From positions 2,232,001 to 2,296,000 of the forward strand of contig CP069394.1 in assembly GCA_016887485.1 (NCBI GenBank): a DNA stretch of 64,000 nt, written 5' to 3'. The notes under the pieces are model-generated. The model saw only the letters and a program-made list of their open reading frames with translations, searched no databases and had not been told where the DNA came from. This document shows positions 6,089-62,761 of this stretch, one piece after another (position 1 is the stretch's first letter; every line of letters begins with the position of its first letter). This DNA comes from Chloroflexota bacterium. GTDB lineage: Bacteria > Chloroflexota > Anaerolineae > Anaerolineales > Anaerolineaceae. A program made the position numbers and the translations under genes.

Positions 6089-7192
6089 ATGTTTTCCGAG
6101 AAAGACCTGCAATCGCTACTGGATTATTCCACCGAAGGCGGACAGGTTCTAAGTTTGTATTTAAACACCGACCCCGGGGAAAGGAGTGCTGAGGCTACTC
6201 AGTTGGCCCTGCGGCACTTGCTTGAATCGAGTGGCCTGCCGGACGATGTCCAGGCGATCGAACAATATGTGAACCTTACCTATGATTGGGCTTCAAAGGG
6301 ACTGGTGATTTTCTCGCAGCAGGGTGAACAAACCTTGTTTGAGGTCTTTAAGTTAAATTTACCCATCCATGATCAGGTTGCGATGGGGACAAGGCCTTTA
6401 TTACGTCCCTTGGTCAGGTTGATGGACACTTTCTCAGGTTGGGGAATCGCTTTGGTGGATAGCCAAAAAGTTCGGTTGTTCTCATTCGATATGGGTGAAG
6501 TGGAGGAGGAAAGGGTCGTTCTTGGGGAAGATATCAAACAGGTCAAACACGGTGGGGGGACGGCTGTGGCCGGACGGATGGGCGGCACAGGGGCCGGGTC
6601 AAGCGTGGATAATGTGATTGACCGGAATGTCAAGGAAGCGGCTGAAGTTGCCGCTGGTTTCTTCTCCCGCAGGCACATCCGCCGAGTCATGATTTGCGGC
6701 ACAGAAGAGAATATCGCCCGATTCAAACAGGCCCTGCCAAAAGCCTGGCAGTCTCTGGTTGTGGTGGATCTCCCGATGCAGATGTCATCCAGTGAGTTTG
6801 ACATTGTAGAAACGGTGTTGAAGGAAGCAGAAGCTGTTCAGGAAGGGCTTGCGGCTCGTTTGGTTGACCAGGCCATCGCCCTGGCGGCCATGGGTGGCCC
6901 AGGTGCTGTTGGCCTGATTGACACTCTGAATGCCAACCATGAGGGGCGGATCAAGACCCTTTTGGTGATAGAGGGTTATGAGCAGGCGGGTTACCGTTGT
7001 TTGGGTTGTGGTTATTTGACGGTACAGGACTTGGATCAATGTCCTTTCTGCGGTGGCACGTTTGAGATGATTCGTAGAGCTGTTGAAATGGCCGTTCAGG
7101 AGTCGCTCATCAAAAATGCGGAAGTTAAAGTGCTTATAGAAAACAAGGCGCTGACAGAAGTTGGGCAAATTGCAGCGATTTTGAGGTACTGA
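6089..7192 (+). CDS. Bacterial eRF1-like (baeRF/Vms1-like release factor) family protein
   Basis: A 367-residue cytoplasmic protein resembling archaeo-eukaryotic release factor eRF1 domains 2 and 3. Bacterial members are proposed to act on stalled ribosomes or peptidyl-tRNA; the exact role here is inference. Seen: an N-terminal segment typical of the family (SLYLNTDPGERS), a glycine-rich stretch where eRF1 carries GGQ (HGGGTAVAGRMGGTGAGS, about residues 154-171), and an eL30-like C-terminal region with a four-Cys zinc ribbon, CLGCG and CPFCGG, near residues 306-325. An ATG at 6077 is in frame, but GGAGG sits 5 nt before the ATG at 6089, so the shorter start is used. It is a single-gene unit with a terminator at 7224. 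Confidence 0.75.
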   Translation: MFSEKDLQSLLDYSTEGGQVLSLYLNTDPGERSAEATQLALRHLLESSGLPDDVQAIEQYVNLTYDWASKGLVIFSQQGEQTLFEVFKLNLPIHDQVAMGTRPLLRPLVRLMDTFSGWGIALVDSQKVRLFSFDMGEVEEERVVLGEDIKQVKHGGGTAVAGRMGGTGAGSSVDNVIDRNVKEAAEVAAGFFSRRHIRRVMICGTEENIARFKQALPKAWQSLVVVDLPMQMSSSEFDIVETVLKEAEAVQEGLAARLVDQAIALAAMGGPGAVGLIDTLNANHEGRIKTLLVIEGYEQAGYRCLGCGYLTVQDLDQCPFCGGTFEMIRRAVEMAVQESLIKNAEVKVLIENKALTEVGQIAAILRY

Positions 7193-7223
7193 ATCTCCAC
7201 AATTTGATGAGAATTTGAACCAG

Positions 7224-7250
7224 GGAGGCCCCACTTATGGGCCTCCTTTT
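7224..7250 (+). terminator. Intrinsic terminator of the eRF1-like gene
   Basis: Perfect 8-bp stem GGAGGCCC / GGGCCTCC with loop CACTTAT, followed by TTTT. Confidence 0.85.
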
Positions 7251-7391
7251 GGGTTAATGTCGGTTAGGTCGAATCCGATATATCACAAATTATGCCAATA
7301 TATGATTTTTTATTGGTAAAAGATTTAATCTGTTAATCAATTATTAACTTTAAGACCAGAATTAATGTAACTGTTCTTAACATTGCTCATA

Positions 7392-7397
7392 TATAAT
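7392..7397 (+). promoter_or_regulatory. Candidate -10 element of the small membrane peptide gene
   Basis: A perfect TATAAT 32 bp before the TTG start of the 34-residue frame. No convincing -35 hexamer is seen at the usual distance. Confidence 0.4.
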
Positions 7398-7428
7398 CGT
7401 GAAAATCTTAACCACGGAGAGGTATGAG

Positions 7429-7533
7429 TTGATCGCAGAGTTCAGCTACTTGATTATTATCGTCATCCTTTGGGTGCTTTACATGTTTATGTATAAGCGC
7501 CAATTCGTGGTTGGGAAGGTAAGGTCAACCTAA
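7429..7533 (+). CDS. Small single-pass membrane peptide, 34 residues
   Basis: A short frame starting at TTG (7429) preceded by GGAGAGG six bases upstream; a nearby ATG at 7424 is stopped after one more codon. The product has a short acidic N-terminus (IAEFSY), one strongly hydrophobic helix of about 17 residues (LIIIVILWVLYMFM with flanks) and a basic tail (YKRQFVVGKVRST), so it should sit in the membrane with the tail in the cytoplasm. It has its own TATAAT box and a strong terminator right after it, which argues for a real small gene. Function unknown. The layout resembles small membrane regulators or type I toxins, but no antisense RNA is visible. Confidence 0.5.
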   Translation: MIAEFSYLIIIVILWVLYMFMYKRQFVVGKVRST

Positions 7534-7566
7534 TTTCAAGGTAGACGAGGACTTAGTAAAGACAAA

Positions 7567-7596
7567 GCCACCCCAGCCAAATGGGGTGGCTTTTTT
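7567..7596 (+). terminator. Intrinsic terminator after the small membrane peptide gene
   Basis: Perfect 8-bp stem GCCACCCC / GGGGTGGC with an 8-nt loop, followed by six T. Confidence 0.88.
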
Positions 7597-7729
7597 CCTT
7601 AAACCGATGATAAGGAAAAGCTGAGTGTTGAACAGGAGGTGCCCTGATCTGGAACTTGTTTGTGAACATTATTGTGTCTTAGAAGTTGATATCTTAGAAA
7701 TCTAGTTATTCAAACAGAGGAGAAGAATA

Positions 7730-8992
7730 ATGAAGTTTAAGAGTTTATTTTTATTGATGGTTATCTTTGTTTTGGCTTTGGGCGCATGTGCACCTGCACC
7801 AGTTGAGGAGACTGCTGCTCCCGAAGTCGAAGCAACCGAAGCGCCAGTTGACGACGCTGCATTGCCAGCTGCTTGTCAAGAAGATGCCTTTGGTTGTGCA
7901 GTGATCCCTGCTGGTGAAACAATCAAGATAGGTATGGGCGCTCCTTTGTTGGGAGACTATTCCATGTTTGGAATTGATATCAGCCAGGGCGTCGCGCTTA
8001 ACCTCGCTGAGGATGATGGTTTTGAAGGCTGGTCCTACGAACTTATCGCTGAGGACACCAATTCTGGCTCAGGTGAAGGTGGGGCGGCGGTTGCCAATAA
8101 GATGGTTACGGATCCCACCGTTGTAGCTATTGCAGGACATATCTTTACTGACTCAAGCGCCGCTGCAATGCCGATTTATGAAAAAGCCGGTCTTCCGATG
8201 ATGTCACCTTCGGCGACCAATCCTTTACTGACCCAAAAAGGTTCTCAAGTCTTCAACCGCTTGGCCTTTACAGATGCGGCTCAAGGTGCTTTTGCAGCAG
8301 ATCTTTTATTCAATTCTCTTGGTTTTACAAAGATCGCAGTCATACATGACGGCAGTGGTTATGGACAGGGCTTGGCCGATGAAGTCAAGGCTGGTTTTGA
8401 AAGTTTTGGCGGTGAGGTTGTGGCTTATGAAGCGGTCACACCAGGTGAGGCTGACTATGTTGCCCCGCTATCGGCAGTAGCCGCAGCTGAGCCGCAGGCT
8501 GTATACTTTGGTGGTTATGCTGCTGAGGCCATTGTCATGATGAATCAGTGGGCGCAGGCTGGTCTGGATGGTGTTCAGTTCTTTGGTTGTGATGGCACTT
8601 ATGGTGTTGAATTCACCGAGAAGACTGGCCCCAATGGTGAAGGCGCGATTGCAGTCTCGCTGGTGCCACCCGATTCCGATGAAAAAATTGCCTTTGATGT
8701 ATTGTATAGCGAGACTTACCCGACCATGGCTGGTGAATTAAGCGCCTTTACATGGGCAGCATGGGATACGGGTGGAGTCTTGGTGCAAGCAATCGAATCG
8801 GTTGCATTTGTGGATAATGGTACGCTTTACGTCCCACGAGGGGCATTAATTCAAGCCGTCCGCGGTCTTGAGTATGTTGGCCTGACAGGTTTAGTCAAAT
8901 GTGACGAAGTAGGTGAATGTAACGCTTCTGGCCCAGCTTTCTACCAGGTTGTAGATGGTGACTGGGTTCCCTTGGATCTTGCCAGCGAATAA
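7730..8992 (+). CDS. livJ: Branched-chain amino acid ABC transporter substrate-binding lipoprotein
   Basis: A 420-residue extracytoplasmic solute-binding protein of the Leu/Ile/Val (type I periplasmic-binding) family. A signal sequence ends in the lipobox LGAC (Cys20), followed by an acidic, Ala/Pro/Glu-rich linker. The mature part starts IKIGMGAPLLGDYSMFG, the usual N-terminal strand of LivJ/LivK proteins, and includes VAIAGHIFTDSSAAAMPIYE, typical of the ligand pocket. Ribosome-binding site GAGGAGA. It is the first gene of livJHMGF. A strong terminator just downstream should make it more abundant than the membrane and ATPase subunits. Substrate is taken from the family; related transporters also carry amides, urea or other amino acids. 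Confidence 0.93.
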   Translation: MKFKSLFLLMVIFVLALGACAPAPVEETAAPEVEATEAPVDDAALPAACQEDAFGCAVIPAGETIKIGMGAPLLGDYSMFGIDISQGVALNLAEDDGFEGWSYELIAEDTNSGSGEGGAAVANKMVTDPTVVAIAGHIFTDSSAAAMPIYEKAGLPMMSPSATNPLLTQKGSQVFNRLAFTDAAQGAFAADLLFNSLGFTKIAVIHDGSGYGQGLADEVKAGFESFGGEVVAYEAVTPGEADYVAPLSAVAAAEPQAVYFGGYAAEAIVMMNQWAQAGLDGVQFFGCDGTYGVEFTEKTGPNGEGAIAVSLVPPDSDEKIAFDVLYSETYPTMAGELSAFTWAAWDTGGVLVQAIESVAFVDNGTLYVPRGALIQAVRGLEYVGLTGLVKCDEVGECNASGPAFYQVVDGDWVPLDLASE

Positions 8993-53895: not shown

Positions 53896-54366
53896 TTAAT
53901 TATCGCTTTCCGGTGAGGTTTCGTCGTTGGGGGTGGGTTCGTTTTCAATCGCCGTCTCAGCAGGCGGCTCTGGCAGGTCGGAGAGGTCCACTTTTTCTTC
54001 CATCGTGACCTTGCCGCGCAGGAAGGCGCCTTCTTCGGTGGCGAAGGACTGGGTGGTCACGTCGCCATAGACCCGACCGGTGGCGCGGATCTCAAGCTTT
54101 TCGGCGATGATCGGCGCATTGACCGTACCCGCTACGATGACCGTCCCGGCTTTGAGCGCGTTGCAGGTCACCCGGCCGGTCTCGCCCACGATCACCAGAC
54201 CGCGTACGGCGATTTCGCCTTCGAGGGTGCCTTCGATCCGAACGCCACCCTTACCGCGCAGGTCGCCTTTCCAGTTAATGCCGGGGCCGAGAACGGTGGT
54301 GACCCGTGCGACCGGGCCGACCGAAGTTTGTGTGTTTGTGGGTTTGTTCTTATTGCCGAATAACAT
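53896..54366 (-). CDS. Bactofilin
   Basis: A 156-residue cytoskeletal protein. After a short N-terminal tail the bactofilin beta-helix (about 28-125) shows the repeated short strands VLGPGINWKGDLRGKGGVRI and GTLEGEIAVRGLVIVGETG. A Pro/Glu-rich acidic tail follows. Bactofilins polymerise and organise cell-envelope enzymes. Several terminal residues of the beta-helix and the tail are variable in the family. It is directly upstream of proS. Confidence 0.9.
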   Translation of the reverse strand: MLFGNKNKPTNTQTSVGPVARVTTVLGPGINWKGDLRGKGGVRIEGTLEGEIAVRGLVIVGETGRVTCNALKAGTVIVAGTVNAPIIAEKLEIRATGRVYGDVTTQSFATEEGAFLRGKVTMEEKVDLSDLPEPPAETAIENEPTPNDETSPESDN

Positions 54367-54419: not shown

Positions 54420-55529
54420 TCAGTTATGAGGCGGCCAGATCGTTCCAGCCGGGACCACACCGCGATCCGGTACATTCGCTTTGACCGTTGCCCCGTTACC
54501 AACCAGGGCATAGGCCCCAATTTTGACATTGAGGTTGACCGTGGCGCGCATGCCGATCAGCGTGCCTTCACCTACCGTCACGCCGCCGGCCAGGGTTGCG
54601 CCAGGGGAGAGGTTCACGGTTTTACCCAGCTGGCAGTCATGCGAGACGATCGCGCCGGTGTTGATGATTGTGCCGAAGCCGGCAGTCACTTCCGTGCCGA
54701 CATAGGCCAGGGGAAAAACCTGCACCCCATCGATCAGATCGGCGCTGTCTTCAATAAAAGCGGTGGGGTGGATCACTTTCGGGAATTGGAAACCAGCCTG
54801 CCGCAGCAGGTCAAAGACGGATAAGCGGGCATTCAGATTGCCGATTCCGCCCACGCCATTGATCGCCAGCCGAATGCCGTCGGCGGCCAACTTTGCCAGA
54901 GTATCCCGCCCCCCAAGGACAGGCAGCCCCAGCACGGTCTCACCGGCAGGGACGCCGTCATCGACGAAGCCCAGCAGGTCAAATCCGCCCATCTTTTGGA
55001 TCAACGCGGCCAGTGAACGGCCGTGCCCACCTGCGCCAAAGATCACCAACCTTTTCTCGCCTTCCGAGACGGGGGGTAAATTGGCAGCGGCTTTTTGAGC
55101 GAGCAGTTCTGCGACCATCTGGCGGGTGACCAACGGGCCAAGGGGCAGCGCTGCCAGGTCCAGGCCGTTACCTTCAGCCAGTTCCCGTGCAGGGGTGGTG
55201 ATCCGTAAGCCTTGCGGGGCAGCTTCTTCAGCAGCTTCAACAGCTTTTGCCCAGGGAGATAAGTTTGGGTCGCTGGAATCGGGTGATTCTCCAATATAAG
55301 CCAGCACTTCGCCGGCAATCATCGACTGGCCGGGCTGATAACGTACACCAACCAGATAACCCGCGGCAGGGGCGTTCACTTCACCGGTGGATTTGGTGGT
55401 TTCTACCACAGCGATCACATCATCCTGCTGGACAGCTTCCCCTTCCGCCGCTTCCAGAGCGACGAGCAGGGCTTCCTTCTCGTTTGGGTTGAGCAGGGGC
55501 ACTTGGATCGGGATCAGTTTCTCACTCAT
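54420..55529 (-). CDS. Lipoyl / E3-binding / NeuD-type acyltransferase fusion (E2-like)
   Basis: A 369-residue protein of unusual build. Residues 1-80 are a lipoyl domain with Lys46 in VETTKSTGEV, as in E2 enzymes. Residues about 100-140 (ITTPARELAEGNGLDLAALP then VTRQMVAELL) resemble the peripheral subunit-binding domain. From about 155 on is a NeuD-type sugar acyltransferase: LVIFGAGGHGRSLAALI (Rossmann-like) and a left-handed beta-helix with hexapeptide repeats ending VPAGTIWPPHN. The chloramphenicol-acetyltransferase-like catalytic domain of normal E2 (DHRxxDG) is absent. It overlaps the E1-beta stop by four bases. I infer that the E1 pair acylates the lipoyl group and that the NeuD part passes the acyl unit to a sugar or other acceptor. 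Confidence 0.85.
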   Translation of the reverse strand: MSEKLIPIQVPLLNPNEKEALLVALEAAEGEAVQQDDVIAVVETTKSTGEVNAPAAGYLVGVRYQPGQSMIAGEVLAYIGESPDSSDPNLSPWAKAVEAAEEAAPQGLRITTPARELAEGNGLDLAALPLGPLVTRQMVAELLAQKAAANLPPVSEGEKRLVIFGAGGHGRSLAALIQKMGGFDLLGFVDDGVPAGETVLGLPVLGGRDTLAKLAADGIRLAINGVGGIGNLNARLSVFDLLRQAGFQFPKVIHPTAFIEDSADLIDGVQVFPLAYVGTEVTAGFGTIINTGAIVSHDCQLGKTVNLSPGATLAGGVTVGEGTLIGMRATVNLNVKIGAYALVGNGATVKANVPDRGVVPAGTIWPPHN

Positions 55530-56575
55530 GCTTGCACCATTTCTCTGGCTTGCGAGATGATATCACTAACTTGCGGCAGGCAGGCCTCTTCCAGGTCTGC
55601 AGCCACCGGGATAACGGTTTCCTGAGCGGCGATCCGCCCTGCCCGTTTTAGTTTTGGCCCCAAGGTTTCGGCCGCGCGGGCCAGCACTTCCGCACCCCAG
55701 CCCCAGGATCCGGTCCCTTCTTCCACGGCCAACAATCTGCCGGATCGCTGAAGGGATTCGATAAGCGGATCAAGATGGGCGGGGGAGAGGCGGGTTGGGA
55801 TCACCAGTTCCGCGAAAATTTCATGCTCATAGGCCAGGCTGTGCAGTGCTTGCAGCGCTAGGTGGGCCATATAACTATAAGCGGTCAGGGTGATCTGCGG
55901 CTTCGGTGCGCCGCGCAGGGAGAGTGTCGTGCAGGTCGCCGGGAAGCCGTCTTTAGGGAGGCTTTCCGATACCTCATAATCCTGAAGGTCCTCCGAAGTG
56001 AGGAGTTTCAAGAGATATTGCAGTTTGTTTTCCACGAAGAAGGTCGGCCCATCCTGGTGGAGGATGGCGTCATGGAGCAGTTGCCCCGCTGCGCCGATTT
56101 CTGAGCTGCCCTGCAGGTGGGAAGGTGCAAGGACGGTCAGCCCCGGCGTGCCGAGGAAGAGCTTCTCGAGTGTTTGGCTGTGAGTGGGCCCGTAACCGCG
56201 GCGGGCGCCCATTGGCGTGCGGATCACAACCGGTGCATTCACCTGGCTGTTGTACATGCCGTGGAATTTGGCGATGTGATTGATAATCTGATCGGCGATC
56301 AGGGTGGCAAAGTCTCCAAACATGATCTCGACCACCGGGCGCATGCCGCGCAGGGCCATCCCGCCAGCCATGCCGGTGATTCCAGCCTCGGAGATCGGGG
56401 TGGTCAATACCCGGTCGGGGAACGCCGTGGAAAGTCCACGGGTTACTTTGAAGGAGCCGCCATAGGGGTCGAGGATATCTTCACCCAACAGGACGACCTG
56501 GGGATTATCCGCCAGGACCTGATGCAGGGCCTGGTTAAGGGATTGCAGTACGGTGCGGGGGAGGGCGTCGGTCAT
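55526..56575 (-). CDS. 2-oxoacid dehydrogenase E1 component, beta subunit
   Basis: A 349-residue beta subunit of a thiamine-diphosphate-dependent dehydrogenase. Conserved parts: LGEDILDPYGGSFKVTRGLS, the TPISEAGITGMAGGMALRGM region, and VVIRTPMGARRGYGPTHSQT. The C-terminal part has the usual transketolase C-domain. It overlaps E1-alpha by four bases on one side and the E2-like fusion by four on the other, so the three should be made in fixed ratio. Pyruvate, branched-chain or acetoin-type substrates cannot be told apart from sequence alone. Confidence 0.9.
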   Translation of the reverse strand: MTDALPRTVLQSLNQALHQVLADNPQVVLLGEDILDPYGGSFKVTRGLSTAFPDRVLTTPISEAGITGMAGGMALRGMRPVVEIMFGDFATLIADQIINHIAKFHGMYNSQVNAPVVIRTPMGARRGYGPTHSQTLEKLFLGTPGLTVLAPSHLQGSSEIGAAGQLLHDAILHQDGPTFFVENKLQYLLKLLTSEDLQDYEVSESLPKDGFPATCTTLSLRGAPKPQITLTAYSYMAHLALQALHSLAYEHEIFAELVIPTRLSPAHLDPLIESLQRSGRLLAVEEGTGSWGWGAEVLARAAETLGPKLKRAGRIAAQETVIPVAADLEEACLPQVSDIISQAREMVQA

Positions 56576-57459
56576 GCGGACCTCCCTTCCATCGCCAAGG
56601 CCGTGTCAAAGGCCGACTGGATTTGGTCCAAGATTCTGAATTGGATAGCTGCCCGTTCCTGATCCGTCAAAAATAAGCCGACAAATTCCACCGGGTCCCG
56701 GAAGGTCCAGAGCAGTTCAACCTCTGTTGGGTCACGGGTGTCATCCCCTTTGGAATGCGTGCCCAGCCGGGAGGTTTCGATCGCCAGGGCCTGAGGGCGA
56801 CTTTCACGGCGGATCAGCCGAGTCAGTTCGCCGGCCACCGGGAGGATTTCGGTCACGTCGTGGGTGTCAAGGTGGGTGGTGGGGATGCCAAAGGCTTCAA
56901 AGCGTTTTGTCATGCTGCCTGCCACGGCTTTTTCAGTGGGGGTGGTTTGGGCGATATGGTTGTTTTCGAGCACGATCAGGATTGGCAGCGACCAGAGTGA
57001 GATCATGTTCAGGCATTCATAAACGATCCCCTCACCGAGGGTGCCGTCGCCCATGAAGTCAAACACGATGGCATTGCGGCCGGCGCGCTTCTCGGCGAAA
57101 GCCATCCCTGCCGCCATCGCCAAGGTGCCGCCCTGGATGCCGTTGGAGTAGAAGTTGCGCCACTGCAGGTGCTGTGAGCCGCCCACCCCGCCGCAAATCC
57201 CGCCGGGTTTGCCCATCAATTCAGCATAGAGGGCGGTTGGGTCGCCGCCATAGGCGAGGAAGTGTCCATGACAGCGGTGGTTGCTGACCACCACGTCATT
57301 TTCCTGCACATGGGAAAGCACACCCACCGCATTGGCTTCATGCCCCAGGCTGGTATGGGTTGTGCCGGGGAAGATGCCGCTGGAAAATTTATCCAGCAGC
57401 AGGGTTTCGAAGCTGCGGATGGTGTATAGTTTTTCGTAGAGCTGGGCGTAGTCAGTCAA
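56572..57459 (-). CDS. 2-oxoacid dehydrogenase E1 component, alpha subunit
   Basis: A 295-residue alpha subunit. The thiamine diphosphate motif is GDGTLGEG followed after the usual distance by ENN (in LIVLENNHIAQTT). GGSQHLQWRNFYSNGIQGGT is the conserved active-site stretch. It is shorter than the usual 320-360 residues, lacking some N-terminal residues. The start codon is TTG with GGAGGAG six bases upstream, overlapping the end of the DNA glycosylase gene by eight bases. It is the first E1 gene of the operon. Confidence 0.88.
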   Translation of the reverse strand: MTDYAQLYEKLYTIRSFETLLLDKFSSGIFPGTTHTSLGHEANAVGVLSHVQENDVVVSNHRCHGHFLAYGGDPTALYAELMGKPGGICGGVGGSQHLQWRNFYSNGIQGGTLAMAAGMAFAEKRAGRNAIVFDFMGDGTLGEGIVYECLNMISLWSLPILIVLENNHIAQTTPTEKAVAGSMTKRFEAFGIPTTHLDTHDVTEILPVAGELTRLIRRESRPQALAIETSRLGTHSKGDDTRDPTEVELLWTFRDPVEFVGLFLTDQERAAIQFRILDQIQSAFDTALAMEGRSA

Positions 57460-58045
57460 GCAGCTCTCCTCCGTTCACGTTGAATCGCCAGGGTTTTGAG
57501 CGCCAGGGTTCCGGCACGCTGTTAAGCCCAATCCGGGCGGAACGCTGCACCCGGTCATCGGGAACAGATTCGCCGGATTCGATCCACAAGCCGTCCCCTG
57601 GTGTGCAGAGATCTATTGTATTAAAAGTCTTGTCAATCGCCAAAGCCTGCGTCAGCTTGGCGGGGCCATCGGTCCAACCGCGCTTACCGGCGTTATAGGG
57701 TCGATTTTGCGTCATCAGGTCCTGTCCCTCTATCGGCTGGATCGCACGGATCAGCACGGCTGAAGGCGTTTCGGGTTGGTCCGTGACCGCATTGAGCATC
57801 CAGTGCATGCCATAGGTGAAGTAGACATAGGCATGGCCCGGCTCGCCATACATCACTGCTGTGCGGGGTGTTTTACCCGCGGAGGCATGGCAGCCAAGGT
57901 CCTCTTCACCCTGATAGGCTTCGCTTTCGAGGATCAGCCCTGCCAGGCGCTGCCCGTTCATCATCCGAACCAAACGGCAGCCCAGCAGGTCCCGCGCCAC
58001 ATCCAGCGCAGAGCGATTGTAAAAGTCACGTTCCAGAATGGACAT
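57452..58045 (-). CDS. Alkyladenine (3-methyladenine) DNA glycosylase, AAG/Mpg type
   Basis: A 197-residue base-excision DNA repair enzyme. Conserved parts: VARDLLGCRLVR, LILESEAYQGEEDLGCHAS (with the catalytic Glu), AYVYFTYGMHWMLNAVT and DGPAKLTQAL. All fit the AAG/Mpg family, which removes alkylated purines. It lies upstream of E1-alpha and overlaps it, an unexpected operon partner with no evident functional tie. Confidence 0.93.
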   Translation of the reverse strand: MSILERDFYNRSALDVARDLLGCRLVRMMNGQRLAGLILESEAYQGEEDLGCHASAGKTPRTAVMYGEPGHAYVYFTYGMHWMLNAVTDQPETPSAVLIRAIQPIEGQDLMTQNRPYNAGKRGWTDGPAKLTQALAIDKTFNTIDLCTPGDGLWIESGESVPDDRVQRSARIGLNSVPEPWRSKPWRFNVNGGELLD

Positions 58046-58141: not shown

Positions 58142-59074
58142 TTATTTCCCGTTTTGGAATTGGGGGTCTTTTTCGAGGGTCAGCCGCAGGCCGTTTTCGA
58201 GTGAGATCAGCGGAACGTAATTCAGAGCGTTCTTGGCTTTACTGATATCCGCGCACATCCGGGAAACGCCGCTCCCCACTCGAGGGTTGTAGACCTCTTC
58301 GGGTTTGCCGCCGGTGATATCAATCACCTGGCGTGCCAATTCGCGCACGCTGGTTTCCTGCCCGCTGCCGACATTGATCACTTCGCCGTTCAAACCCTGC
58401 GCAGTGGCGGCAGCAACCAGGGCATTGACCACGTCGTCCACATAGACATAGTCACGGGTCTGGTTGCCATCGCCGTGGAAGATCAATGTGCCGTTTTGTT
58501 TAGCCTGGCGGATGAAGTTGGGGATGACTGGCGGGTGGGCGGGGGGAATCCGCTGGCCGGGACCATAGGCGTTGAAAATCCGCAGGATCAGGGTTTCAAC
58601 GCCGGAGAGATCACCGATTGTGCGGACGTACCATTCTGCTGCCAGTTTGGATGCTGCATAGGGTGATTGCGGATGGGGTGACATGGTTTCAACCATCATG
58701 GTAGATTCCTGGTTGCCATAAACGGCGCCGGAAGAGGTCAGCACCACCCGAGGAGTCCCGGCATCGCGAATGGCTTCCATTAGCGTGGCAGTACCGCCGG
58801 TATTCACTTCATTATAATCACGCGGGAAAAGCACTGATTCCGGAACGGAGACCCGGGCGGCTAGGTGGTAGACGCAATGGATATCCTGGAGGAGGGTCCA
58901 GAGCTTGGGGCGGTCGTTGATGTCGCCGCGGGTGAAGTGGATTTCGGGGTCGAGGGCATCGGGGTTGCCTGTGGATAGATCATCCAACACGCGGACATGA
59001 TGCCCCTGCCTGAGTAACCGGTTGCTTAAAGCGGAGCCAAGAAACCCCGCTCCGCCTGTGATCAAAAAATTCAT
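58142..59074 (-). CDS. NAD-dependent sugar epimerase/dehydratase
   Basis: A 310-residue short-chain dehydrogenase of the UDP-glucose epimerase/GalE-like family. The nucleotide motif is GGAGFLGSALS and the catalytic Tyr-Lys pair is in SPYAASKLAAEWY (YxxxK). TSSGAVYGNQES and FHGDGNQTRDYVYVDDVVNA are typical. It should epimerise or dehydrate a nucleotide sugar for glycan synthesis, which fits the NeuD-type acyltransferase about 3 kb away. The substrate cannot be named. Confidence 0.88.
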   Translation of the reverse strand: MNFLITGGAGFLGSALSNRLLRQGHHVRVLDDLSTGNPDALDPEIHFTRGDINDRPKLWTLLQDIHCVYHLAARVSVPESVLFPRDYNEVNTGGTATLMEAIRDAGTPRVVLTSSGAVYGNQESTMMVETMSPHPQSPYAASKLAAEWYVRTIGDLSGVETLILRIFNAYGPGQRIPPAHPPVIPNFIRQAKQNGTLIFHGDGNQTRDYVYVDDVVNALVAAATAQGLNGEVINVGSGQETSVRELARQVIDITGGKPEEVYNPRVGSGVSRMCADISKAKNALNYVPLISLENGLRLTLEKDPQFQNGK

Positions 59075-60143: not shown

Positions 60144-60668
60144 TTATATATCATCCATAATTGAAAATTGAAGATTATCAATAAACTGCGGATTACCTAA
60201 TGATAATACTGAGCTGTAATTAAATGGTAATGAAATCTCAAGATCTTTGATGTCATCATTCGAAATATAACAAAACCCTTGTGGAGGAGTAAAACTATTC
60301 CAGGTTTGTTTAAGAGTTTGTAGGGATATTGGAATAGAGAACTTGAACAGAGATTGAATATAAATCCCTATTCCAAATTCCTTATCTTTGTAGTAATTAT
60401 CAAACTCTGTTTTAGATATACCAGCAATGAATCGCACATGATTCCATAGATCATCTTTGGATGTTTCGATAACCTTTTCGACGATAAATCCACCTTGAAT
60501 TGATTGAACTGGTGAAGAAACGTAGAGTAACACTAGACTGCCATTCGTTAAGTGCTTTGGCCGAAATTTCCGTAACTCAACAGTCTTTTCATTTCGGAAT
60601 ATTTTTTCTGCATAAGGTGGTTTTATTGAGAAGATTATTATTTGATGATTAATCATGGATTTTCTCAT
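60144..60668 (-). CDS. ASCH/PUA-like domain protein
   Basis: A 174-residue protein with an N-terminal ASCH-type (PUA-fold) domain: IIIFSIKPPYAEKIFRNEKT, VELRKFRP, then VLLYVSSPVQSIQGGFIVEKV. ASCH domains bind RNA or modified nucleotides. The C-terminal 60 residues are without a known motif. AAGGGCG lies before the ATG at 60668, which overlaps the upstream GNAT-PIN stop by four bases. Its AT content is much higher than the neighbouring core genes, which suggests transfer as a pair with that gene. Confidence 0.75.
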   Translation of the reverse strand: MRKSMINHQIIIFSIKPPYAEKIFRNEKTVELRKFRPKHLTNGSLVLLYVSSPVQSIQGGFIVEKVIETSKDDLWNHVRFIAGISKTEFDNYYKDKEFGIGIYIQSLFKFSIPISLQTLKQTWNSFTPPQGFCYISNDDIKDLEISLPFNYSSVLSLGNPQFIDNLQFSIMDDI

Positions 60669-62761
60669 TCGCCCTTCATCCCTATTGAATAAATCAGATG
60701 AAATAACTCATTTGAAATTTTCATTGGTCCTTGGGGGTGAAAATTTTTATTTTCAGTTTCTTCCCAGATTTTTCTGATTTTATTTAGATTGATCGGAAAG
60801 GTAAAAAGCTCAGTATGGCTAAATTTAAATGCCATAATATCTTTATTTATATCATTTTTTGCAGTATCGTATACTTGTTTCCAGCTATAAGTCCCCGTTT
60901 TTTTAAATTCTTGATAAAGCGTTTTGGGTTTATCGATTATTACTTCGTTTAAATATGAACAGGCTCGAATTGATTGTATATCTGTGTAGGGGGATTTGCT
61001 GTTACTTATATACCATAATATCCGTCCAGGTGATTTGAGGACGTTTGGCTTGCTGGATCGAAAATAAACATTTTCTGTAATTAGAACTTGTGTTGGCTTT
61101 CCTCCAAACAGTTCCTGGTTTCCTAAATTGCTATCAAATAAATTTAATGCAAAACTTGGTTGAATTGGGACTAAGAAGTTGTTAAACCGTATATTAGAGA
61201 ATTTTATAGGCCATATTGTTTTTTCTAATTCAATATCAAAGTAATCGTCATTTATTTGAGCTACTTGGTTAATAGAATCGATTAATTGATTTAAATAGGT
61301 TATATCTGGGAGATCCACATGTTTCAGAACTTCTATTTTTTGAATTAATTCATCTGATGAATATTGACCATACATTGATAGTCGCCAATAACTATTACCG
61401 TTAGGAACAAAGCCATAGCTACGAAGAATCTGTTTAATATTTTCTAGTAAGTACTTTTCATTGAGTTTTATAAGAGAAATTTCTTCTTCAATCGCTTTTT
61501 GAATAATGTATAGGATTAGATATTCACTTAATGGATTTATTAACTCGCATTTCTTTATTCGGAAAATTGGAACTTCGAGAATGTATTTATCTTCTTTATT
61601 TAACACAATAACACTAAGATATTTTTCTTTGGCCTTTACCACTAGAGTTTCAAATTTAACCGGATTAGAAGAATACTTCCTAAGAGATTTTAAAAAATGG
61701 CTCTTAGTTTCTTCATTGGTCCAAAGAAATGTGTTTGCTAATAAGTCTATCTCATGCGGACCGACTTTATTAATTAGGATATTTAATCCAGCTAGTCTAG
61801 TGGGGTGATACTCTTTGCTTCTTCGAATTCTATCAATATGGATGATTAGCTCAGCTGGAGTCCACACAAAGAGGCCAACGTTGGATTCGAGTGGCGAAGA
61901 TTTATTTATTAAATTCTGGTCATGGGTTATAAAATATTTAACATTGCTTGCGACAGTTCTCTCAATTTGTCTTTTGTCTGAATGATCTTGTTCTGTAAGA
62001 ATATCGCCAAAAACCTTATCGATCGCAGATTGATTTTCGTCAGATATGTCTTCACGGAATGGGATTATTGTAAATAAATTGACTGATGCACGAGTTCTTT
62101 CTCGAGTTATGGGATTATCACTACGAGCTATTTCGTTAAAAATTTCCTCTGTTACGCATAACTCAATTTCACTTGATAGCCATTCGCTTAGAAGAGCATT
62201 GCTATCCTCTTTATTTCTAGAGTCTTTATAAATTAAGTCGTAGAAGATATTTGCATCAATAACCACATGGATCTTGTCATCAATTGATGAAAAAAAATCA
62301 GCTGAAAACAAATCTGAATAACCATGATCATACAGGAAAATCGTTAATGTGCTTCCAGATTTACTTCTACCCTTTTTTTCTCCCTTTGCGATGAAGCCCA
62401 TTTTCGGCCAAAAGCTATGAGCTTTCCAGTCTCGCCTGCAATGTACTCGAATCGCATAACTGTTTTGCTTTGAAATAACTTTTAAATGTTTAACTAACTC
62501 CTTGGCATAGTTCTTACCTCTATACTCCTCTTTTATGCATAAATGAGTTATTGAAGTAAGTCTTAGTTTCAAGTTGTGGTTAAATAAGAGATATCCAACG
62601 AAATTCTTTTTTTCATCAATTGCAACAAGAATTTTGTTCTCGATGGCAGCATTTTGGAAGGCCACCTTAGGCAAAAACCCCAAGGTGTCACTGTTCTTAT
62701 CCCCTAAATCAATAACTGATTTTAGGTAAGGGGAGCTACTATTAATCCTGATTATTTCCAT
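60665..62761 (-). CDS. Multidomain protein with GNAT and PIN domains
   Basis: A 698-residue protein. Residues 1-150 form a GNAT acetyltransferase: THLCIKEEYRGKNYAKELV (acetyl-CoA loop) and FWPKMGFIAKGEKK. Residues about 163-310 form a PIN-type nuclease domain with VVIDANIFYDLI (Asp169), EEIFNEIARSD and YFITHDQNLI, so the acidic metal site looks intact. The remaining part has a long linker, then about 560-640 a segment (PTQVLITENVYFRSSK, GRILWYISNSK) resembling another ASCH/PUA-like fold. It is AT-rich like its partner. The set suggests an RNA-directed effector, perhaps for defence or stress, but that is inference. Confidence 0.75.
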   Translation of the reverse strand: MEIIRINSSSPYLKSVIDLGDKNSDTLGFLPKVAFQNAAIENKILVAIDEKKNFVGYLLFNHNLKLRLTSITHLCIKEEYRGKNYAKELVKHLKVISKQNSYAIRVHCRRDWKAHSFWPKMGFIAKGEKKGRSKSGSTLTIFLYDHGYSDLFSADFFSSIDDKIHVVIDANIFYDLIYKDSRNKEDSNALLSEWLSSEIELCVTEEIFNEIARSDNPITRERTRASVNLFTIIPFREDISDENQSAIDKVFGDILTEQDHSDKRQIERTVASNVKYFITHDQNLINKSSPLESNVGLFVWTPAELIIHIDRIRRSKEYHPTRLAGLNILINKVGPHEIDLLANTFLWTNEETKSHFLKSLRKYSSNPVKFETLVVKAKEKYLSVIVLNKEDKYILEVPIFRIKKCELINPLSEYLILYIIQKAIEEEISLIKLNEKYLLENIKQILRSYGFVPNGNSYWRLSMYGQYSSDELIQKIEVLKHVDLPDITYLNQLIDSINQVAQINDDYFDIELEKTIWPIKFSNIRFNNFLVPIQPSFALNLFDSNLGNQELFGGKPTQVLITENVYFRSSKPNVLKSPGRILWYISNSKSPYTDIQSIRACSYLNEVIIDKPKTLYQEFKKTGTYSWKQVYDTAKNDINKDIMAFKFSHTELFTFPINLNKIRKIWEETENKNFHPQGPMKISNELFHLIYSIGMKGE

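Follow-up and report, generated by a model that had tools for sequence, protein, structure and literature searches.

A lipoyl-NeuD fusion encoded with a 2-oxoacid dehydrogenase E1 pair suggests an undescribed acyl-loading route for cell-surface amino sugars

Introduction

Three overlapping genes in the genome of a Chloroflexota bacterium of the Anaerolineaceae (GCA_016887485.1) encode the E1-alpha and E1-beta subunits of a thiamine diphosphate (ThDP)-dependent 2-oxoacid dehydrogenase and, in place of the E2 acyltransferase, a fusion of a lipoyl domain, a subunit-binding domain (PSBD) and a NeuD/PglD-type N-acyltransferase. This arrangement suggests an undescribed acyl-loading route for cell-surface amino sugars. 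The trio is probably a sugar N-acylating 2-oxoacid dehydrogenase complex with direct transfer of acyl groups from lipoyl to sugar and, with slightly less assurance, we favor a coupling of the oxidative decarboxylation of a 2-oxoacid to amide formation on an amino sugar through a protein-bound lipoyl arm that bypasses CoA. The computed support consists of the domains, their conservation, the pairing with E1, the gene context and the presence of a lipoate synthase in the genome. As far as is known, the acyl groups carried by the lipoyl arms of 2-oxoacid dehydrogenases end up on CoA, and the donors of sugar N-acyltransferases are acyl-CoA, acyl-ACP or similar compounds. A literature search yielded neither a lipoyl-NeuD protein nor an E1 in a sugar pathway among the matches listed.

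In the proposed cycle, E1-alpha and E1-beta would decarboxylate a 2-oxoacid on ThDP and then reductively acylate the lipoyl group predicted on Lys46 of the fusion. The lipoyl domain would then swing its acyl-dihydrolipoyl thioester into the catalytic site of the NeuD/PglD part of the fusion, presumably a trimer, where His297 would act as general base. From there, the acyl group would go directly, without CoA, to the amino group on C4 of a putative acceptor, a nucleotide-activated 4-amino-4,6-dideoxy sugar. The PSBD would recruit E3 (or E1), and E3 would reoxidize dihydrolipoate with NAD+. In Chloroflexota and Myxococcota, the acylated sugar may become part of an undecaprenyl-linked glycan of the PglC type, and in some Pseudomonadota and SAR324 it may end up in sugars of the nonulosonate type.

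The gene trio

The window, i.e., the whole stretch of 64,000 nucleotides that was analyzed, covers positions 2,232,001-2,296,000 of contig CP069394.1, and the trio occupies its positions 54420-57459 on the minus strand. E1-alpha (295 aa, 56572..57459) has a TTG start with GGAGG just upstream, E1-beta (349 aa) lies at 55526..56575 and the fusion (369 aa) at 54420..55529; open reading frames and domains thus match the layout given in the original prediction. Four-base overlaps link the fusion to E1-beta (55526-55529) and E1-beta to E1-alpha (56572-56575). The overlaps do not establish the fixed stoichiometry that had been considered likely from them: in other genomes, the genes are spaced apart or separated by insertions, or E1 forms a single open reading frame.

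Compared with a locus of the same genus (L036), the trio genes show dN/dS values of 0.12-0.23, with dS of 1.4-2.0 and thus close to saturation. Chance or misread open reading frames are ruled out by these values and by the recurrence of the three genes together across many genomes; an assembly error is likewise ruled out as the origin of the fusion, which was found at 65 loci on separate contigs.

The three flanking genes described here are on the minus strand. Upstream lies a 3-methyladenine DNA glycosylase gene (57452..58045, PF02245), which overlaps E1-alpha by eight bases and is a conserved neighbor in close relatives; it is probably outside the mechanism of the trio. A NAD-dependent epimerase/dehydratase gene (58142..59074, PF01370) is also conserved next to the trio in close relatives. 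Downstream, a bactofilin gene (53896..54366, PF04519) is a conserved neighbor of the NeuD gene across the family, with or without E1.

The E1 subunits

E1-alpha matches PF00676 (4.9e-43), with human PDH E1-alpha as best PDB match, and scores 206 bits against the NCBIfam equivalog TIGR03182, under its cut-off of 394. E1-beta matches PF02779 (1.5e-29) and PF02780 (8.5e-13), finds E1-beta subunits in the PDB and reaches 181 bits against PRK09212, under its cut-off of 321. The pair can be assigned to E1 on the presence of both subunits, the ThDP domains and the catalytic histidines. His235 of E1-alpha (56755..56757, minus strand), in an HSKGDD loop, occupies the column of the canonical E1 HS and is invariant in all 81 aligned E1-alpha sequences, as well as in an alignment of seven sequences, two of them canonical E1-alphas encoded in the same genome. 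His132 of E1-beta (56180..56182, minus strand) is invariant in 77/77 aligned E1-beta and aligns with H128-beta of Geobacillus stearothermophilus E1p, described in PMC2663715 as the proposed proton donor in the reductive acylation of lipoate.

The substrate of this E1 may not be pyruvate, since His61 of E1-alpha stands where human PDH has Tyr; its retention in 81/81 sequences is a biased count, the loci having been gathered with scan peptides spanning that region. The same His61 favors another reading, to which we give little credence, in which the lipoyl domain is merely a redox element or tether, E1 performs other thiamine chemistry (e.g., a two-carbon unit joined to a sugar, or oxidation of a hydroxyketone as in acetoin dehydrogenase) and NeuD independently uses acetyl-CoA. 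Against this reading, both lipoyl-acylation histidines are kept, an E3 gene as required by an oxidative lipoyl cycle occurs in the cluster of locus L203, and trio-type E1, lysine and PSBD are absent together in one genome (G216).

The lipoyl arm and the subunit-binding domain

The fusion yields an AlphaFold model with a mean pLDDT of 92.9 and a pTM of 0.74. Residues 6-80 (55290..55514, minus strand) form a lipoyl domain with the corresponding strands in the model, a PF00364 match over residues 8-79 (6.4e-11) and a Foldseek match to 3crk_C, the L2 domain of the PDHK2-L2 complex (TM 0.84 by target). Lys46 (55392..55394, minus strand), the predicted lipoylation site within ETTKS, falls at the lipoyl lysine position (ETTK), as had been anticipated from the sequence, and is Lys in 79/80 aligned fusion-family proteins. 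These comprise a 63-protein alignment, made without five truncated fusions (L078, L089, L090, L094 and L113), and 17 added proteins originating from 15/20 full-length places plus L191 and L192. The exception, L039, belongs to a genome in which an E1-alpha of the trio type was not found. LipA is encoded in the window genome (377 bits vs. a cut-off of 310). PF00364 (Biotin_lipoyl) does not separate lipoyl from biotin domains. Lys46 might carry biotin or no modification at all, with an N-terminal part that just tethers E1 to NeuD; we consider this very improbable given the E2-type PSBD that follows the domain, its structural match to a PDH E2 lipoyl domain and the lipoyl-acylating histidines of the partner E1.

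Pfam finds no PSBD in the segment of residues 107-149 (55083..55211, minus strand). A profile of 44 homologous segments matches the PSBDs of PDH E2 proteins in the PDB (1w4i, 0.0013; 2eq8_C, 0.002; 1w4j, 0.0058), and the model helices at 112-120 and 136-149 are the pair expected for such a domain, in agreement with the E3-binding-like segment originally proposed. The top Foldseek matches are PSBDs or E2 models, with E-values of at least 0.13. The same profile also matches an unrelated hydrolase (7qjm, 0.0029 over 16 residues). In the L043 fusion, the PSBD is unrecognizable.

The NeuD/PglD-type acyltransferase domain

The fusion therefore has the lipoyl domain with conserved lysine and the PSBD of an E2, but lacks the CAT core: the domain search returned no PF00198 match, which rules out an ordinary CAT domain. 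Residues 159-369 (54423..55055, minus strand) instead form a NeuD/PglD-type left-handed beta-helix N-acyltransferase domain, with 185.6 bits against TIGR03570 (NeuD; cut-off 160.8), PglD_N at 160-240, Hexapep matches and a structural match to a PerB mutant (4eab, rmsd 1.1 Å). The replacement of the CAT core foreseen from the sequence is thus confirmed.

Its assignment to the NeuD family follows from the profile score above cut-off, the catalytic histidine and the nucleotide-sugar residues. The catalytic His297 is kept in 80/80 aligned proteins. Asp190-Asp191 corresponds to the nucleotide-binding Asp residues of PglD and Pcryo_0637 (PMC8040287); the pair is kept in 77/80, being broken in L181, L202 and L203. 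His169, at a nucleotide-sugar position named in PMC8040287, is kept in 75/80.

Three likely CoA-binding positions differ between the main fusion clade and a set of 22 stand-alone NeuDs, all out of 301 genomes: Asn345 (60/60 vs. Ala in 20/22), Ala361 (58/60 vs. Gly in 22/22) and Gly362 (58/60 vs. Val in 18/22). In the fusions L043 and L118, the residue aligned with Ala361 is still Gly, and the GVPAK ending is intact in L043. The joining of E1-lipoyl and NeuD parts may have arisen separately in the main fusion clade, in L043 and in L118.

These residues bear on the possibility, rather unlikely in our opinion, that CoA is still the carrier. In this scheme, CoA would receive the acyl group supplied by E1 and the lipoyl arm, assisted by the NeuD domain or by a CAT protein encoded in the genome. 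The NeuD domain would next acylate the sugar from acyl-CoA, like PglD, and the fusion would provide a local supply of an unusual acyl-CoA. The altered main-clade residues speak against it, whereas the CoA-type ending of L043 and the structures of PerB, PglB, PglD and Pcryo_0637 solved with CoA or acetyl-CoA (structure titles; PMC8040287) speak for it. So do L039, L040 and L041, stand-alone relatives of the same family, which keep the NeuD part without a trio-type E1 or a working lipoyl domain and nest within the fusion clade (63 tips, support 0.968; FastTree with midpoint root, all 17 added proteins left out). This position rules out stand-alone NeuDs of the family as the ancestral state and indicates that this NeuD type can use another donor, probably CoA; since L039-L041 keep the altered residues at the putative CoA site, these residues are weaker evidence for lipoate. 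Regarding the predicted hand-over of the acyl group to a sugar or other acceptor rather than to CoA, architecture, conservation, E1 pairing and glycan context give good support to a sugar acyltransferase that is supplied by E1 and a lipoyl arm, while we infer the CoA-free step.

Distribution, E1 pairing and ordinary E2s

E1-alpha relatives were gathered by scanning with two peptides, [NE]DVV[VF]SNH and RCHGHFLA, which biases conservation at E1-alpha residues about 54-69. Among the best 80 of 129 relatives, 65 loci carry the fusion and two a CAT-type E2; 10 of the remaining 13 end inside or before the expected place of the fusion. Three of the scanned loci (L049, L052 and L108) lie on contigs equal in length to those of G168, G200 and G072. 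The suggested survey for the same gene order thus recovered E1 with the fusion at a large number of loci. Outside Chloroflexota, full-length fusions were found in 14/282 genomes of Myxococcota and 4/398 of Pseudomonadota. A plasmid search matched 65 records, none covering 80% of the query.

Seven whole genomes were searched for trio-type E1-alpha. A match better than 1e-105 is present in each of the four genomes that retain the lysine; in the three with a NeuD missing the lysine or the lipoyl domain, no match surpasses 1e-57, a level reached by canonical E1 in these searches. Fusions without adjacent E1 can be dismissed as evidence against pairing, as G640 and G504, two of the four, encode a trio-type E1-alpha away from the fusion.

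The window genome encodes three ordinary CAT E2s, each adjoined by an E1 of its own, either a subunit pair or a fused form, and one lone CAT-like open reading frame of 268 residues with no adjacent E1. A normal E2 elsewhere that pairs with the E1 of the trio had been named as refuting the original prediction. The three full CAT E2s were rejected as partners since each adjoins its own E1, the case being less firm for the lone 268-residue frame; overall, pairing with a normal E2 is unlikely. For CoA as the carrier, these four CAT-type genes count as support, against which it must be set that every full CAT E2 has its own E1 and that a CAT gene appears at only 2 of the best 80 (of 129) loci in the fetched stretches, many of which end early.

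Gene context

A glycan role had been proposed from the adjacent epimerase gene, an argument that we dropped because this gene is merely a conserved neighbor; the DegT aminotransferase, PglC-like transferase and nonulosonate genes of relatives are better evidence. DegT or a PglC-like transferase is encoded near 41 of the best 80 (of 129) E1-alpha loci. For the fusion loci, this proportion is 34/65 vs. 0/20 canonical E2 loci (chosen for contig room from 65 matches and belonging to 13 genomes), the loci being related by descent so that the Fisher value of this comparison is not a true probability. Only 5/30 loci from L098 to L127 have DegT or the transferase nearby.

The trio of the window lies outside any sugar cluster and has no adjacent E3 gene. 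Elsewhere in its genome are encoded a 632-residue protein of the 4,6-dehydratase type and, away from the trio, a DegT and a transferase that are 64% and 68% identical to their L058 counterparts. The transferase has N,N'-diacetylbacillosaminyl-1-phosphate transferase (PglC) as best PDB match (255 bits vs. 134 for the next type), and DegT falls under the PseC and LegC cut-offs, with perosamine synthetase as best PDB match. In Pseudomonadota, the L204 cluster combines PseB, PseC and PseF, all over cut-off, with E1 and the fusion, and that of L203 harbors lipoamide dehydrogenase (TIGR01350) and NeuC, both over cut-off, NeuB-like and PseF-like genes, E1 and the fusion. Although L203 offers the most telling gene context, its broken Asp pair makes a different acceptor possible there.

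Relation to known systems and implications

With PDH, BCKDH and acetoin dehydrogenase, the trio shares E1-alpha and E1-beta, the lipoyl domain and the PSBD, as well as E3 in the L203 cluster, but it has a NeuD-type acyltransferase instead of the CAT core and, in many relatives, a glycan context. With the NeuD/PglD/PerB/VioB N-acetyltransferases, whose known members use acetyl-CoA as donor, the fusion shares the fold, the catalytic His, the Asp pair and the DegT partner; it differs by the added lipoyl and PSBD domains, the E1 partner genes and, in the main clade, an altered C-terminal coil. All types of the Campylobacter Pgl system (PglF, PglE, PglD and PglC), i.e., dehydratase, aminotransferase, acyltransferase and PglC-like transferase, are present in the window genome, and transferase and DegT adjoin the trio in relatives; in these bacteria, E1 and the lipoyl fusion would serve the PglD step. 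The pseudaminic, legionaminic and sialic acid pathways are represented with the trio by PseB/PseC/PseF in L204 and by NeuC and the NeuB-like and PseF-like genes in L203, these clusters differing from known nonulosonic acid pathways by E1 and the lipoyl-NeuD fusion, and by E3 in L203. The annotated subset of their proteins includes no PseH-type GNAT.

The fusion can be seen as an E2 that retained its arm and binding domain and exchanged its catalytic core. If the proposed direct transfer is correct, joining a lipoyl arm to a sugar N-acyltransferase would be a new biological acylation route, which would explain how unusual N-acyl groups might reach bacterial surface sugars and would make a bacterial glycan trait dependent on lipoate.

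A lipoyl-NeuD fusion in the position of E2

Three consecutive genes on the minus strand of the window encode E1-alpha (56572-57459; Pfam E1_dh), E1-beta (55526-56575; Pfam transketolase pyrimidine and C-terminal domains) and a 369-residue fusion protein (54420-55529) with Pfam matches to Biotin_lipoyl (residues 8-79), PglD_N (160-240) and Hexapep. NCBIfam assigns the fusion, with a score above cut-off, to the NeuD/PglB/VioB sugar acetyltransferases, and among PDB sequences its C-terminal half best matches perosamine N-acetyltransferase, the pilin glycosylation protein PglB of Neisseria, VioB and Campylobacter PglD. Its AlphaFold model, obtained with 47 homologues as input (mean pLDDT 92.9, pTM 0.74), has lipoyl-type strands up to residue 80 and helices at 112-120 and 136-149, followed by the N-terminal and beta-helix parts of NeuD. 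With Foldseek, the NeuD part superposes on PerB at 1.1 Å, and the N-terminal part was aligned with the L2 lipoyl domain of the PDHK2-L2 complex. The middle segment has no Pfam match, even at E = 5. A profile of 44 such segments matches the peripheral subunit-binding domains (PSBDs) of PDH E2 (E 0.0013, 0.002 and 0.0058), together with an unrelated hydrolase (0.0029), and PSBDs rank first in a fold search, at E-values of 0.13 and above. The E1 pair and lipoyl-PSBD-NeuD fusion proposed for 54420-57459 are borne out by Pfam, NCBIfam, AlphaFold, Foldseek and the PSBD profile. From the lipoyl, PSBD-like and NeuD matches (AlphaFold, Foldseek, profile), we read the fusion as an E2 whose catalytic (CAT) core was swapped for NeuD. 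In contrast to a canonical 2-oxoacid dehydrogenase E2, it carries NeuD where the CAT core would stand; because that core was searched for and is absent, the trio is classed as E1 plus NeuD family members and not as E2.

On the E1 side, His235 of the HS loop of E1-alpha is kept in 81/81 aligned sequences and His132 of E1-beta in 77/77. The latter aligns with H128-beta, a residue proposed as proton donor for acetyl transfer to lipoate (PMC2663715). Lipoate synthase is encoded in the same genome (2.9 Mb, two contigs). According to the original prediction, no normal E2 encoded elsewhere should pair with this E1. This stands for the three full CAT-type E2 genes of the genome, each of which adjoins its own E1 pair or fused E1, but less firmly for a lone CAT-like ORF of 268 residues (L048:3691-4497; matches of 7.8e-9 and 6.6e-8), which has no E1 or lipoyl gene adjoining. 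At 60665-62761 of the window, a 698-residue ORF, which by eye resembles a GNAT acetyltransferase followed by a PIN-type domain, is overlapped by a 174-residue ORF. The trio is a variant of the 2-oxoacid dehydrogenase complex so far undescribed in the open-access literature searched, where no description of an E1 plus lipoyl-NeuD system was found.

Distribution of the trio

The gene order was surveyed by an E1-alpha scan of the GTDB contig collection. Among the best 80 of 129 relatives, E1-beta is present at 78 loci and the fusion at 65; the arrangement of the window recurs widely. Among the relatives listed, the nearest named ones are Anaerolineaceae and Brevefilum metagenome assemblies, which makes Chloroflexota the very probable phylum of the window. 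Of the 15 fusion-less loci, three end with the contig inside an apparent lipoyl domain (L075, L111, L128), seven end in E1 or shortly past E1-beta (L060, L067, L092, L095, L099, L101, L105), and L103 and L125 have no match in their remaining 546 and 794 bases. At L084, E1-alpha (7983-8870) lies with a glycosylase, while E1-beta (6260-7282) and the fusion (7279-8409) of the same genome sit with a bactofilin inside a separate contig (L191), as if a rearrangement had cut the operon in two. The last two, the Magnetococcales loci L122 and L124, have a CAT E2 instead.

In these Magnetococcales, an E1 of the same subfamily accompanies a short lipoyl-CAT E2 of about 380 residues (L122:9989-11122; L124 from 9983), possibly the ancestral arrangement. 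In the E1-alpha tree, both branch outside all other scan loci (support 0.946 for the 79 others and 0.76 at the node enclosing them), a pattern that would fit an exchange of CAT.

Full-length fusions occur in at least 5/301 genomes of the window's phylum (G000, G200, G168, G072 and G158), with a degenerate one in G216, in 14/282 Myxococcota (phylum of the L126 genome) and in 4/398 Pseudomonadota (phylum of the L128 genome). E1 adjoins the fusion at 14 of the 15 Myxococcota and Pseudomonadota places examined out of 20, L200 being the exception. E1-alpha and E1-beta are joined in a single ORF (about 640-710 residues) at L059, L060, L062, L063, L072, L091, L100, L122, L124, L128, L203 and L204, and also at L067, where it is cut. 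An opposite-strand ORF lies between E1-beta and the fusion at L114, L116, L117, L119 (L119:9994-10674), L120, L121 and L127; Pfam assigns the L116 and L119 ORFs to DUF4013, and the others are similar in size.

Glycan context and proposed reaction

The genes of L058 run sugar-1-phosphate transferase, E1-alpha, E1-beta, beta-propeller protein, fusion, DegT aminotransferase and UbiA. DegT or a transferase of this type is found at 41/80 scan loci and 34/65 fusion loci, against 0/20 control loci (canonical E2s from the same taxonomic order). The low frequency at L098-L127 (5/30) counts against a glycan context. L043 holds the trio amid GFO/IDH/MocA, DegT, Wzz, Wzy and glycosyltransferase genes. The transferase comes after the fusion at L193, L194, L195, L201 and L206, and L118 has NeuB ahead of E1 and DegT after the fusion. 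L203 encodes on a single strand a PseF-like cytidylyltransferase, a NeuB-like protein, NeuC, dihydrolipoyl dehydrogenase (447 bits, cut-off 409), polysaccharide deacetylase, fused E1, the fusion and an ABC transporter. At L204, PseB, PseC and PseF, each above cut-off, precede a second DegT, fused E1 and the fusion, with a NeuB-family gene about 13 kb off. In the window genome, the candidate sugar-pathway partners are dispersed and include a CapD-type dehydratase, a DegT (64% identity to that of L058) and a transferase (68% identity to its L058 counterpart) whose top PDB match is N,N'-diacetylbacillosaminyl-1-phosphate transferase.

Taken together, the evidence fits a sugar N-acylation step driven by oxidative decarboxylation. 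A dehydratase would yield a 4-keto sugar, DegT would place an amine at C4, and the trio would then acylate the amino sugar, a step for which known pathways use PglD, LegH or PseH. The central idea of the original prediction, an E1-lipoyl system predicted to feed a sugar acyltransferase, is largely upheld, on stronger evidence than it had at the outset. In a PglD relative, the tetrahedral intermediate between acetyl-CoA and the UDP-4-amino sugar has been trapped, and a histidine is the likely base (PMC8040287). In the fusion, a dihydrolipoyl thioester could replace CoA as donor. In the main fusion clade, Asn345, Ala361-Gly362 and Trp365 stand where stand-alone family members have other residues, at positions that we take to be CoA-holding from the family GAG and GVPAK pattern. 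These changes may point away from a CoA donor, but are suggestive only, because L043 has a CoA-type ending and the stand-alone L039-L041 retain the changed residues. An E1 reserved for this step would be easiest to explain if the acyl group were not acetyl.

Conservation and apparent loss

Among 80 aligned proteins (63 plus a further 17), the catalytic histidine is present in all, the nucleotide-binding Asp pair in 77 (broken in L181, L202 and L203), and Lys46, the predicted lipoylation site, in 79. The one protein without the lysine, L039, comes from a member of the same family as the window (G216); it lacks the PSBD and keeps a lipoyl-like remnant.

This type of E1-alpha was sought in seven whole genomes. 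In three of them (G216, G104, G176), NeuD is missing the lysine or its entire lipoyl part, and no hit there is stronger than 1e-57, a value on a par with canonical E1 in the window genome. The four with the lysine in their fusion (G000, G072, G640, G504) gave hits stronger than 1e-105. Two lysine-bearing fusions have no E1 nearby (L200:9075-10112 in G640; L192:3980-5356 in G504); both genomes encode this E1-alpha type at another place, which in G640 is on the contig that carries the fusion.

Two fusions, L043 and L118, are placed by the NeuD tree outside the main fusion clade, and the joining of lipoyl and NeuD domains may therefore have had more than one origin. L039 and the stand-alone NeuDs L040 and L041 nest within the fusion clade. 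In these close relatives, NeuD adjoins a bactofilin, with no E1 (L039:9507-10616, L040:9762-10439, L041:9339-10019). Judged from the tree, their placement reads as a joint loss of E1, PSBD and lysine, which would make L039-L041 a natural experiment on the loss of the complex.
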